Positions 1-5,932 of a DNA stretch of 7,554 nucleotides are shown piece after piece. The stretch's first letter is position 1. Each line of letters starts with the position of its first letter. Under the pieces are notes generated by a model. That model searched no databases. It was not told where the DNA came from and saw only the letters and a list, made by a program, of their open reading frames with translations. The translations under genes and the position numbers were made by a program. This DNA is from Desulfobacteraceae bacterium (lineage in GTDB: Bacteria; Desulfobacterota; Desulfobacteria; Desulfobacterales; Desulfobacteraceae): assembly GCA_023140455.1 (NCBI GenBank), contig JAGLLQ010000037.1, forward strand, positions 1-7,554, written 5' to 3'.

Positions 1-1474
1 ATTCCCGCAGCGCTTCCCGGGGCAGTTGGTCTTCTAAGTGCCGTCTATTATAGCAGCCGGTGAGTGCATCCTCTATGGATATCTTTTTTATTGTTTCATA
101 GGCAGACTTTAGCTTTTCTGTACGCTTGTCAACCTTTTCCTCAAGATGCAAAACCATTTCTTCCATTTCTTTTGAAAGCTTCTCTGAAAGCACAAAGGCA
201 TTGGAGAACCTGACTGACAATAAATATGATTGAAAAAAAATAAAAACAAAAAACCCAAAAGGAGCTATATCGCCGGTAAAAATAATCATCTGTGAATATA
301 AAATATCATTAATAACAGTCACAATAAGCACAAGCCAGCCCAGAAGAAATAATTTTGCCCCCTCTCTTTTTTTGTAAGCTGCCAGACACAGAGCCGATAG
401 GGAATAGAATATATAGAACAAGGTTATCATCTGATACGTTGTTGTCGTGTGGGAGTGAACAGGTGCTTTTGTAAATAATACAATCATGCTGAATATAATC
501 GCTATCAATATTGAACTTTGGACTATGATTCTGGATAGCTCCCTGGGATACAGGGATTTTAAGAATAGTAGAAAAAATGGTACTACTAGATAAAAGGAGA
601 GATATTCTAACTTCAGTGTCATTTCCCAGGTAATACCAACATATGTGTTAAGTAAATGACATCCTGTTGTTGTAACCCTAATAGCAATAATGATGCAGAC
701 AATTCCAAAATAAAGGGCGGAAGGGTCTTTCCGACGGAAAACAAAAAGTCCAAAATGGTATAACCCCATAATAATGAGGCCCCCGAGAAGCAATTGTTCT
801 AAAAAAAGAGCCTTTTCTCTTTTTTTCCGGATTTGTTTTTCTGTTCCGATAATAATGCTCTCTCGAATTCCACCTCTTCGAAACATGAAATTTGAGACCT
901 GTACAATTATCTGGATTGTTTTGTCAGTTGATTGGAAAGATGCAATCTTAGGTGACCAGAAAGGTGTCATAGTCTCCTTGCTTGTGCCCACAACTCCATT
1001 TGACAGCAATTTTTCATTATTCAGCCATAAAGTATAAGCAGTTGGAATGATATGTAACTTTAAGGCCTTCATATCAGAGGATGATCTTATCTTGATTTTT
1101 AGCCTGTAGGTGGCATAACCGTTTCCTGAAAGGGTTTTTTCGTTCACTTCGTAATTATTCCACACTGAAGGGAGGCGTATCAATCCGGTTTTTTGGGGCA
1201 GGGCCGGACTGTTAAAATCATCAGGCTTTAATAACTTTTCCCAGTAAAACTCCCATTCGCCATCAAGTTTTACAACCCCATCTTTTTGAAAATCCCAGTC
1301 AGACAAATCAAGTAATCCATTAACCGCCTGGGGAGGCTCGCGCTTAACTGTCTGGTGGTCACTACAGGAGGCAAACATGAGGCAAAGACATAGCGCCAGA
1401 CATGTTGTCATAATAATTAACAAAGAATCTGCTTTTTTTATCAGTCGAAGCATTGTACCAAGTCGCCCATTCAT
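1..1474 (-). CDS. 7TM-DISM membrane diguanylate cyclase, N-terminal part (cut by left edge)
   Basis: The minus-strand frame is open from 1474 to the window edge (491 codons), with no stop. Residues 8-36 form a signal peptide (short basic start, then a hydrophobic run) ending in FAS-C37, a possible but imperfect lipobox. Residues of about 50-200 form a periplasmic domain with the pattern LDGEWEFYW and a beta-rich continuation, as in the extracellular 7TMR-DISM domains. About seven hydrophobic helices follow between residues 220 and 425. Next comes a charged coiled-coil-like linker, and then D469-ALTGCYNRR, which is the entry motif of a GGDEF domain. The GGDEF signature itself would lie outside the window. 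The family synthesises cyclic di-GMP in response to a periplasmic ligand, and the ligand is unknown here. ATG 1453 is an alternative start that gives a more compact signal peptide; neither start has a strong Shine-Dalgarno. A histidine kinase output is less likely because of the DxLTGxYNRR motif. Confidence 0.85.
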   Translation of the reverse strand, partial: MNGRLGTMLRLIKKADSLLIIMTTCLALCLCLMFASCSDHQTVKREPPQAVNGLLDLSDWDFQKDGVVKLDGEWEFYWEKLLKPDDFNSPALPQKTGLIRLPSVWNNYEVNEKTLSGNGYATYRLKIKIRSSSDMKALKLHIIPTAYTLWLNNEKLLSNGVVGTSKETMTPFWSPKIASFQSTDKTIQIIVQVSNFMFRRGGIRESIIIGTEKQIRKKREKALFLEQLLLGGLIIMGLYHFGLFVFRRKDPSALYFGIVCIIIAIRVTTTGCHLLNTYVGITWEMTLKLEYLSFYLVVPFFLLFLKSLYPRELSRIIVQSSILIAIIFSMIVLFTKAPVHSHTTTTYQMITLFYIFYSLSALCLAAYKKREGAKLFLLGWLVLIVTVINDILYSQMIIFTGDIAPFGFFVFIFFQSYLLSVRFSNAFVLSEKLSKEMEEMVLHLEEKVDKRTEKLKSAYETIKKISIEDALTGCYNRRHLEDQLPREALRE

Positions 1475-1565
1475 AGTCCAAAGCACATCAAAAAAGAAGA
1501 TATTGAGCTGCTAACAGCTTTTCTCAGTGAAACTTTCTGTAGTTGTAAAAATCAGTATATCTATT

Positions 1566-3643: not shown

Positions 3644-4045
3644 TTATTTATTTTTAAAAAATCCTTTAAATACCTTACAGCGCCGGCATTCTTTCATTTT
3701 TTCTTCCCAGGAATTATGGATTCTACCACTGCACTTAGTGCCATTAATAAACCAGCACAGATCACCTGAATCAAATTCCCAGGCAGGGCACTGCTTGAGC
3801 CTCTTTTCCGGACACTTCAGAACATCCCAGCATTTATCTGAAGATTTACCTTGACCTATAAGAACCCGGGAAAGCAGAAATAGCAGCTGCCTTTCAACAT
3901 GGTGGGGTATTTTACGCCATCCCTGTTCATAGCTATGAATTGCCTTTATGGAAACCCCGAGTATTTCAGCAAGTTCCTTTTGTGTTTTTTTCAGTCTTGC
4001 CCTGATATCTTTAAATTCATCACTTTCCATTGTTACTTTTTCCAT
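3644..4045 (-). CDS. XRE-type HTH regulator with C-terminal two-CW cysteine-rich domain
   Basis: The protein has 133 residues. Residues of about 11-55 form a helix-turn-helix of the XRE type (RLKKTQKELAEILGVSIKAI, then HSYEQGWRKIP), which binds DNA in this family. Residues 72-126 carry seven cysteines (72, 78, 86, 97, 105, 120, 123) in the order CW-x4-KC-x7-CPAW, CW with GTKC downstream, and CRRC-like C-x2-C. This is the widespread two-CW layout, which looks able to bind a metal or Fe-S centre; cofactor binding is inference. It is the first gene of a tight operon with cysE and cysK, so it probably regulates cysteine synthesis and its own promoter. No ligand-binding domain other than the Cys-rich part is present. 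ATG 4030 (M6), preceded by GGAAAAAG, is a possible alternative start; ATG 4045 has no clear Shine-Dalgarno. Confidence 0.85.
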   Translation of the reverse strand: MEKVTMESDEFKDIRARLKKTQKELAEILGVSIKAIHSYEQGWRKIPHHVERQLLFLLSRVLIGQGKSSDKCWDVLKCPEKRLKQCPAWEFDSGDLCWFINGTKCSGRIHNSWEEKMKECRRCKVFKGFFKNK

Positions 4046-4202: not shown

Positions 4203-4673
4203 ATGATAAGCATTAACATACCGGGATTCCGACAGATAAGTATTAAGCATGTAGTATTTGATTATAATGGAACCATTGCCAAAGATGGTGAATTGATCAA
4301 AGGTGTTAAAGACGGCATAAAACAATTTTCAAACCAGCTAAAGTTCCACGTAATTACAGCTGATACTTTTGGATTTGTAAAAAAGGAGCTTCATGGTGTT
4401 GATGCTGCTCTGACCATTATCCCAAAAAATGATCAGGCTCAAAAGAAACTTGACTATATTCATACGCTTGGATCGGACCGGACCATTTGTGTTGGCAACG
4501 GTGCCAATGACAGACTGATGCTCAAGGAGGCCTGCATTGGCATTGCCGTGCTTCAGGAAGAGGGCCTATCCTCATCATCCCTTGCGGCAGCAGACCTTCT
4601 GGTAAAAAATATCCTTGATGTTTTCGGTTTTTTCCAGACACCGGAACGACTCATAGCAGGTTTGCGAACCTGA
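4203..4673 (+). CDS. small HAD-superfamily protein, soluble P-type-ATPase-like
   Basis: From ATG 4203 the protein has 156 residues and no cap domain. It shows HAD motif I as VFDYNGT (nucleophile D20), motif II as ITADTFG (T52), a likely motif III lysine around K81-K82, and motif IV as GNGANDRLML (98-107). This matches the group described as soluble P-type ATPases, which resembles the isolated phosphorylation domain of P-type ATPases. The residue two after the nucleophile is N22 rather than the Asp used as general acid by most HAD phosphatases. The substrate is unknown. There are no membrane segments, so it is cytoplasmic. I prefer ATG 4203 over the upstream TTG 4158 because AAAAGGG lies about 10 bases before it and the family normally begins with this short beta strand (MISINIPGF). 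It is divergent from the cys operon and convergent with the ATPase gene. Confidence 0.8.
   Translation: MISINIPGFRQISIKHVVFDYNGTIAKDGELIKGVKDGIKQFSNQLKFHVITADTFGFVKKELHGVDAALTIIPKNDQAQKKLDYIHTLGSDRTICVGNGANDRLMLKEACIGIAVLQEEGLSSSSLAAADLLVKNILDVFGFFQTPERLIAGLRT
4657..4672. repeat. hairpin over the HAD gene stop codon
   Basis: CAGGTT-TGCG-AACCTG is a perfect 6-bp inverted repeat ending in the TG of the TGA stop. It is followed on the plus strand by A-rich sequence rather than T. On the minus strand no T-run follows it either. It is therefore not a normal intrinsic terminator for either convergent gene, but it is the only hairpin in the 17-base convergent gap region. Confidence 0.4.
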
Positions 4674-4690: not shown

Positions 4691-5866
4691 TTAAACAAGT
4701 GCCATTAAAAATTTTGATGCTGGAATCACATGGATATTGCTTTTTTTGTCCTGATAATGCTGCTGCTCATCCATGGTAACCAGAAATCTTTGTTCTACAT
4801 TCAGCCGATCTCCAAAATAGCTTAAGGGTTTGTGGGAAGAAACTTTAAGTTTACATTCCACCATAAACCATGGGGTCCCTTTCCATGTAACAAGAAAATC
4901 AACCTCACGACCTTCTCTATCTCTGATATACCATAATGCTATTTTCAGACCATAAACCTGGTGATAAAAATCACAAAATTTATTTAAATGGGATGCGATC
5001 ATATTTTCAAATTTTGAACCATCATCCTCTATTTCTGACCAGTCCCAAAGATAGTATTTAGATTCTTTTTTTAAGGCTCGCTCAAGTCTGGAATGAAACG
5101 GCATTACCCTGAAACAATAATAATTTCGGCAGAGCAGATCCATCCAGGTTATTATAGTTTTCGGGCTTGTCTGCACATCTTCTGACAGAGAAGATAGAGA
5201 GAGAGGAGATGCTACTCTTTTGGGAAGAAGTGCTCCTAAAAGTTCAACCTGGGAAAGCAGTCTCACTTTTTCTGCTGTTCTTATATCTTCTCTGAATATT
5301 CTCTCAAATCTTTCGTTCTGCCATCGTAAAAGTGTTTGTTCGCTTCCTTCAAGTAGTGGCTCTGGGAATCCTCCAAACTTAAATAAGTCTTTTAGATCCC
5401 CACCTTTTTCGGGAAACAATAAAGAGTGGCAGTATTGAGGCATCTCCATATCAGGCAAGCCTGTCTGAATAATTTCTTTCAATGAAAAAGGGTGGAGTAC
5501 GTGATAATGGTATCTTCCTAGTAAAGAGTCTCCTGATTTCCTGAAAATATTTAATTTTGATGAACCTGTAACAATTATTTTTTCATTATTGGATCGAGTA
5601 TCCCAAATCCCTTTTATTAAATTCTTCCATTTGTCGTATTTGTGTATTTCATCAAATACAATGTATTTTATATCCGGTGCCCATTTCTGCTTCATAATTT
5701 TGAGTTTATGTTTGGGATTGTCCCAATTCAAATAGACGTGATGGTTTTCTTCTTCAGCAATAAAACGGGCAAGTGTAGTTTTTCCGACCTGTCTAGGACC
5801 TCCCAGAAACACCATTTTTTTTTGAAGGTCATCTTTAATTGTTCCTGCTAAATATCTTTTCTTCAT
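4691..5866 (-). CDS. AAA_14 / DUF4143 P-loop ATPase
   Basis: From ATG 5866 the protein has 391 residues. Walker A is GGPRQVGKTT (K29), Walker B is YIVFDEIHK (D72, E73), and VTGSS (99-103) and GRYHYHVLHPFSL (from 117) follow as usual in this family. A helical, winged-helix-like part spans about 200-255. The C-terminal DUF4143 domain contains REVDFLV (D323) and FMVECKL (E337, K339), the D...ExK pattern of the PD-(D/E)XK nuclease fold, preceded by FENMIASHL (E287). This COG1373-type family is common and often multicopy, and its cellular role is poorly understood; nuclease activity is not established. An upstream in-frame ATG 5884 would add MGYFCH. I prefer 5866 because the family starts close to the first basic residues and because the likely -10 box lies inside those six codons. 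No Shine-Dalgarno is needed if the transcript is leaderless. It is convergent with the HAD gene. Confidence 0.88.
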   Translation of the reverse strand: MKKRYLAGTIKDDLQKKMVFLGGPRQVGKTTLARFIAEEENHHVYLNWDNPKHKLKIMKQKWAPDIKYIVFDEIHKYDKWKNLIKGIWDTRSNNEKIIVTGSSKLNIFRKSGDSLLGRYHYHVLHPFSLKEIIQTGLPDMEMPQYCHSLLFPEKGGDLKDLFKFGGFPEPLLEGSEQTLLRWQNERFERIFREDIRTAEKVRLLSQVELLGALLPKRVASPLSLSSLSEDVQTSPKTIITWMDLLCRNYYCFRVMPFHSRLERALKKESKYYLWDWSEIEDDGSKFENMIASHLNKFCDFYHQVYGLKIALWYIRDREGREVDFLVTWKGTPWFMVECKLKVSSHKPLSYFGDRLNVEQRFLVTMDEQQHYQDKKSNIHVIPASKFLMALV

Positions 5867-5932
5867 ATGACAAAAATAACCCATAGGTAAAGAATGTCAA
5901 TACTTTTTTTACCTATGGGTTATTTTTGTCAT
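5867..5932. repeat. perfect 25-bp inverted repeat with 16-base loop at the ATPase start
   Basis: The left arm 5867-5891 and the right arm 5908-5932 are exact reverse complements over 25 bases (ends ATGACAAAAATAACC and its complement). They are separated by 5892-5907. The left arm stops at the base next to the preferred ATPase start codon (5866-5864). Each arm also has internal partial symmetry around ACCTATGGGT. Because of the repeat, the hexapeptide MGYFCH can be read on both strands. No third copy is seen in the window, so this is more likely an operator or RNA hairpin than an element end. Confidence 0.9.
5873..5900 (-). promoter_or_regulatory. promoter of the ATPase gene inside the inverted repeat
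   Basis: On the minus strand, a perfect TTGACA (5900-5895) lies in the loop of the inverted repeat. TATTTT (5878-5873, 4 of 6 matches) lies in the left arm after 16 bases. The start of transcription would fall at or next to ATG 5866, giving a leaderless or nearly leaderless mRNA. The mirrored right arm has no -35 box at the equivalent distance, so the promoter appears to be one-directional. Confidence 0.5.

Follow-up and report, generated by a model that had tools for sequence, protein, structure and literature searches.

An inverted repeat at the start codon of an AAA_14/DUF4143 ATPase gene as a probable tandem operator for autoregulation

The DNA analysed here (the window, 7,554 nucleotides in length) carries a perfect inverted repeat directly in front of an ATPase gene, and the question raised by this locus is which function such a palindrome serves. 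Two exact reverse-complement arms of 25 bp, located by an inverted-repeat search at 5867-5891 (gene-proximal) and 5908-5932 (distal), enclose a loop of 16 bp read from the sequence (5892-5907), none of these features being assigned to a strand; the arms reach 31 nt each around 4 nt when two mismatches are allowed. The runner-up perfect inverted repeat of the window (loop under 60) has an arm of 10 nt and the longest arm in 20 order-1 simulated windows measures 12 nt, so that the arm search and the simulations confirm the opinion of an earlier note that the repeat is not due to chance. The same note had placed the palindrome at the ATPase start and the promoter inside it, and both placements are borne out: position 5867 adjoins the A of ATG 5866 directly, the -35 box TTGACA (minus strand, 5900-5895) lies in the loop and a -10-like box TATTTT (minus strand, 5878-5873) lies in the arm, after a spacer of 16 bp. 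The palindrome is probably a tandem operator for autoregulation by the ATPase, whose binding is predicted from sequence. The finding is broader than one locus, as the arrangement was found across AAA_14/DUF4143 genes.

The ATPase gene (4691-5866, minus strand) encodes 391 aa and displays matches above cut-off to AAA_14 (PF13173, E 1.1e-27) and DUF4143 (PF13635, E 3.6e-20), together with a best E of 1.6e-40 for PDC-S01, a candidate family of PADLOC. The PDC-S01 or AAA_14-DUF4143 ATPases, to which the window protein belongs, are presumably those linked to COG1373. A conserved segment, GGPRQVGKTT (residues 22-31; 5774-5803, minus strand), is taken by us to be the Walker A motif. In the AlphaFold model (mean pLDDT 89.7), residues 204-256 (5099-5257, minus strand) form a helix-helix-helix-strand unit, which we read as a winged helix-turn-helix with a putative recognition helix at residues 235-247 (5126-5164, minus strand). 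Further downstream, a PD-(D/E)XK-like nuclease motif, E321-x-D323 ... E337-x-K339 (4850-4906, minus strand), was delineated by conservation, E321, D323 and E337 being invariant and K339 nearly so in 50 sequences. The accessible text of one source describes PDC-S01 as a fusion of an ATPase with a domain of the PD-(D/E)XK superfamily, ranks it as the fourth most common defence in one survey and states that validation is pending for most such defence candidates (PMC12988326); PDC-S01 is presented as an abundant phage-defence candidate there and in the accessible part of a second source (PMC13356809). No operator or autoregulation is described in the accessible portions of the literature on DUF4143, COG1373 and PDC-S01, subscription papers and preprints lying outside the search. 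A sequence search of solved structures gave no credible relative, and the top Foldseek ranks were occupied by Cdc6/Orc1 and RuvB with TM-scores of about 0.3. The archaeal AAA+ ATPases SSO1545 (2fna) and PABY2304 (2qen) display the same arrangement of an AAA part followed by a winged helix-turn-helix, in a match which spans residues 1-281 only of the ATPase model. We know of no DNA site for either of these proteins.

In order to compare the upstream regions of related genes, 445 sequences (444 fetched loci and the window) were processed and a gene start was obtained for 407 of them, 7 being dropped for short upstream sequence or absence of a start codon and 31 for absence of a match near the protein N-terminus. 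These comprised 337 distinct sequences, of which 297 were left below 90% identity; the set comes almost entirely from one phylum, that of a Desulfobacula MAG. Of the 297 genes, 180 have a TTGAC that begins 31-38 bases upstream of the start codon; the same holds for 2 of 249 control ORFs, which were called mechanically in the same loci and are not verified genes. The distance from TTGAC to the start is 34, 35 or 36 in 171 of the 180 anchored genes, and a -10-like hexamer (at most 2 mismatches to TATAAT, best of four registers and counted without a control run) follows in 166 of them; both window boxes thus occupy positions that are conserved in the family. Motifs resembling a Shine-Dalgarno sequence are present in 18 of the 180 anchored genes and 40 of all 297, as compared to 83 of the 249 control ORFs. 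Since the -35 box is located some 35 bases before the ATG and such motifs are few, transcription most probably begins with the ATG itself (5864-5866, minus strand), and the transcript would then be leaderless. A second in-frame ATG occurs further upstream at 5884; 5866 was taken as the start because ATG 5884 falls inside the palindrome and the alignments of the relatives begin at 5866. The fixed distance between promoter and start codon helps to place gene starts in general.

The first five relatives compared share 61-88% protein identity with the window ATPase. In four of them (L001-L004) the ATG is immediately preceded by a clear inverted repeat, scoring 24, 19, 14 and 13, beyond which the DNA further upstream appears unrelated by eye, and in L004 the two arms are altered in step, TTACCTGAAGGTAA standing opposite TTACCTTCAGGTTAA. 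The fifth, a fragment (L005), keeps the layout and TTGAC with a repeat score of 8, within the shuffle range (shuffle maximum 10). An absence of the repeat from orthologous loci, which the earlier note had named as an outcome that would speak against its reading, was therefore not encountered.

The 180 promoters were then aligned on TTGAC and searched for column pairs that are complementary beyond the expectation from composition. Three axes stand out, at +0.5, -15.5 and +16.5: z 3 is exceeded by 17, 8 and 4 column pairs, respectively, and by 2 on the axis that ranks next. The axes were identical in an earlier run on 147 genes, in which a direct repeat with a period of 32 bp was also seen. Three dyad axes imply four equivalent half-sites, grouped into the dyads O1 and O2, which are arranged as tandem operators with centers 32 bp apart. 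Mapped to the window, O1 (5901-5930, minus strand, axis 5915.5) lies upstream of the -35 box and O2 (5869-5898, minus strand, axis 5883.5) extends from the -35 box (5895-5900), which overlaps its start, to 3 bp before the start codon. The arms of the palindrome are thus parts of two 30-bp sites, each of them dyadic in the family average. Within-gene matching was 0.537 for O1, 0.534 for O2, 0.560 for the outer halves of O1 and O2 and 0.658 for their inner halves, against at most 0.443, 0.483, 0.431 and 0.536, respectively, in 200 re-pairings with other genes. The operator letters vary between genes yet agree inside one gene: half-site position 4.5 holds 0.03 bits across 147 genes and shows a within-gene agreement of 0.54, where 0.26 is expected. 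Within a dyad, the two copies of this position are separated by 9 bp, close to one turn of the helix, and the 32 bp between dyads amount to about three turns; such spacing suits dimers of a winged helix-turn-helix protein on one helix face. A four-half-site symmetry score of at least 7 is reached by 185 of the 297 genes and by 2 of 216 control regions with enough upstream sequence, and 49 further genes without TTGAC exceed a symmetry threshold of 6.5. The axes and the four half-sites support the dimer-of-dimers operator with embedded promoter that the earlier note had envisaged.

Several results count against the operator reading. Neither TTGAC nor the symmetry threshold anchors 68 of the 297 genes. 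The single sites of the window are weakly symmetric, with 47% (O1) and 60% (O2) of 15 positions, and the value of O1 is near the 42% obtained when matching is made with other genes; the inverted pairing between the outer halves of O1 and O2 is perfect. Our confidence in autoregulation by the ATPase was slightly lowered because of these weak dyads in the window itself and of the result obtained with the L005 fragment.

The identity of the reader was approached by comparing operator letters with protein residues. Where residue 236 is N, half-site position 4.5 is C in 41 of 44 cases; where residue 235 is D, position 6.5 is C in all 17 cases, and this letter is absent there from every other residue class listed. 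The initial association tests, pair-based or using APC, mainly reflected clade structure, and cluster-level and tree-corrected tests were used in their place. In simulations corrected for the tree, 5 of 13 operator traits have their highest-ranking residue feature (among 1186-1885) within residues 233-245, where about 0.4 would be expected from the length of the segment, and this segment is among the top two features for 8 of the 13, the traits being mutually non-independent. With the tree taken into account, the operator letters therefore appear to be linked above chance to the first part of the recognition helix, residues 234-243 being those concerned. Residues outside the helix rank high too (190 and 187 at position 4.5, for instance), clades share both traits, and the genes with D235 resemble one clade. 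A weak test on 90 near-independent pairs (293 columns, uncorrected p values) singles out residue 236 at positions 5.5 (p 0.002) and 4.5 (p 0.019) and residue 239 at position 5.5 (p 0.001), with no helix column at position 6.5. In the cluster-level test, other columns ranked first at positions 6.5 and 5.5, and coarser clustering left too few genes for positions 5.5 to 2.5. An association with operator letters was likewise seen for residue 317 (codon 4916-4918), located next to the nuclease motif, perhaps only through clade structure.

The conserved geometry, the covarying half-sites, the helix association and the lack of further close copies of the arm in the genomes of relatives were computed directly from the sequences. 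Autoregulation by the ATPase and its nuclease-like domain, as proposed in the earlier note, can be retained as far as the ATPase is concerned, given the helix association and arm copies at its own promoters; the nuclease-like domain is not favored as the reader, the winged helix at residues 204-256 being likelier. The mechanism that we infer can be briefly summarized as follows. The ATPase would use its own winged helix-turn-helix to bind the four half-sites, in the form of dimers that cooperate and that the 32-bp distance between the centers of O1 and O2 would place on one helix face. Because O2 covers the promoter almost to the start codon, a filled O2 would shut off transcription and the ATPase would thereby limit its own synthesis from the predicted leaderless start. 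O1, whose center is about 50 bp upstream of the start, would provide cooperativity and might activate at low protein level; some switch could release the repression. Each gene copy would have its own matched operator and distant paralogs would therefore share no control site. A clear operator offers a handle on the control of the ATPase gene and on its DNA target, and the family makes available a natural series of repressor-operator pairs with differing letters.

This predicted arrangement is reminiscent of the controller (C) proteins of restriction-modification systems. C.PvuII, C.AhdI, C.Esp1396I and C.Csp231I likewise have two tandem dyads in their own promoter, and such systems combine a leaderless transcript with autogenous control of a nuclease, features to which the ATPase gene can be likened through its predicted leaderless start; a fusion of a C protein with its REase has been described as well (accessible text of PMC4824078). 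In the ATPase family the two tandem dyads are seen by covariation, the window sites being weakly self-symmetric. The systems differ in that the apparent reader is not a small free-standing Xre-type protein but a winged helix in an AAA ATPase of 391 aa that also carries a PD-(D/E)XK-like domain, and the ATPase is therefore not a member of the R-M controller class. Moreover, its half-sites of about 15 bp, with dyad centers 32 bp apart, are unlike the C-boxes. Neither a methyltransferase nor a linked methyltransferase/REase pair was found among the window genes scanned over 7.5 kb.

A special form of the autoregulation reading follows from this likeness, in which O1 would first activate and O2 later repress, so that the nuclease would be delayed and then capped after entry into a new cell. 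We regard it as possible but rather doubtful. The layout resembles the C-boxes with their OL/OR dyads, leaderless transcript and activation followed by repression (accessible text of PMC4824078), the center of O1 about 50 bp upstream of +1 would suit an activator site, and the operator-gene unit occurs in unrelated genomic surroundings. However, the combination of TTGACA, 16 bp and TATTTT seems an adequate promoter without an activator, and the mean symmetry of O1 and O2 is equal (0.54 vs 0.53), with no order of affinity visible. Slightly more credible, although still a tentative proposal, is that PDC-S01 genes are self-addressed modules, each with a private four-half-site operator that its own recognition helix would read by a decipherable residue-base code. 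Each would be a travelling unit of about 1.25 kb, from the outer edge of the operator to the stop codon, in which a new copy would be expressed until its own address is filled and the operator type would decide on coexistence. If true, PDC-S01, among the commonest prokaryotic defence candidates, would resemble controller-type restriction systems in its expression after arrival. R-M controllers form incompatibility groups by operator, according to the accessible part of PMC3874152; with the ATPases, 99 same-genome pairs among 222 genes revealed no consistent avoidance of shared operators within genomes.

The surroundings of the genes were compared in nine independent pairs whose identity is 85-98% across 900 nt or more. 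Homology begins between -67 and -61 in six of the nine pairs and at -88, -78 and -45 in the remaining three. Of the eight pairs with enough downstream sequence, seven lose homology between -4 and +9 relative to the stop codon. Judged from these alignments, the operator stays with the ATPase gene in differing, unrelated genomic surroundings. Such edges could be expected if the palindrome marked one end of a mobile element and served the ATPase-nuclease as a recognition site in moving that element, a possibility that we nevertheless consider unlikely. Among the best 70 of 2700 pairs, long flanks are common to L210-L217, L114-L176, L118-L123, L140-L144 and L053-L235. Long flanks are likewise common to L002-L198 and L293-L303. 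Host recombination keeping only functional DNA alike would also fit the edges. In the window, only the two palindrome arms match the 25-mer at up to 3 mismatches and no third copy exists. Searching the genomes of five relatives with the same tolerance returned 5 matches, found in three genomes and all at the ATPase's own promoter. These results speak against the ends of an insertion element, an origin that the earlier note had named as damaging to its reading. No terminal repeat was found at both ends of the gene, which bears on elements with terminal repeats, and no right-end motif was seen by eye in 32 hand-picked pairs. The neighbouring HAD gene has matches in 185 of 291 genomes of the class; in 30 loci of this gene neither the ATPase nor the MATE gene was found within the flank at E 1e-8 and no empty site was found, and as these 30 loci lack both genes the insertion site is not comparable.

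An operator serving another, trans-acting regulator is less probable still. A gene for an HTH protein is present nearby at 3644-4045, but the gene-specific operator letters follow the ATPase's own recognition helix and the site accompanies the ATPase where flanks differ. An RNA hairpin or DNA cruciform functioning as such seems very improbable: a perfect 25-bp stem is possible in principle, but the +0.5 axis would then suffice, whereas the direct repeat of 32 bp and the two further axes (-15.5 and +16.5) call for four equivalent half-sites; the stem would also be untranscribed from the ATPase promoter if transcription starts at the ATG, and the window has no Rfam match. An inverted repeat could in principle recombine, but loop inversion acting as a promoter switch, as suggested in the earlier note, has next to no likelihood in view of a loop of 16 bp and of the inverted box GTCAA being present at -40 to -28 in 1 of the 297 genes as compared to 180 with TTGAC.

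The tandem operator proposed for the ATPase was also sought outside the main phylum, the other phyla being represented by three plasmid loci inspected by eye. The Rhabdochlamydia plasmid locus displays the same layout with TTGGC replacing TTGAC, the Bandiella plasmid locus shows the operator-promoter layout in part, and the Thermus plasmid relative has dyads upstream of its start without a TTGAC box. These 3 loci come from 263 plasmid records with mostly distant ATPase relatives; 5 phage records had matches, no ATPase relative was confirmed in two scans of viral contigs, and plasmid DNA searches with the palindrome region and with the upstream flank gave no match. On the Rhabdochlamydia plasmid (NZ_CP075588.1, 798-846 of locus L325), the layout and the protein match point to a start codon lying 48 bases before the annotated one, and the annotation probably cuts the N-terminus of the ATPase. 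On the Candidatus Bandiella plasmid (NZ_CP104165.1), the AAA part and the DUF4143 part are found in two adjacent CDS, and this copy appears broken or split. Paralogous ATPase clusters occur as well, since a contig of 7.3 kb (C106 of genome G003) contains four AAA_14 matches. The Thermus gene TT_P0211, which has AAA_14 and DUF4143 motifs and is located near a CRISPR locus, changes 6.6-fold in HB27+P vs HB27 according to the accessible data of PMC4406477, which would fit a plasmid-responsive gene.

Three other genes of the window deserve mention. The HTH protein encoded at 3644-4045 (minus strand) has a C-terminal two-CW domain and lies beside cysE-like and cysK genes; it could be a regulator of the cysteine pathway. 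A large membrane protein (2-1486, minus strand) continues past the window edge, and its end resembles, by motif, what we take to be the start of a GGDEF domain. The small HAD-like protein encoded at 4203-4673 (plus strand) shows weak, below-cut-off matches to P-type ATPase models.
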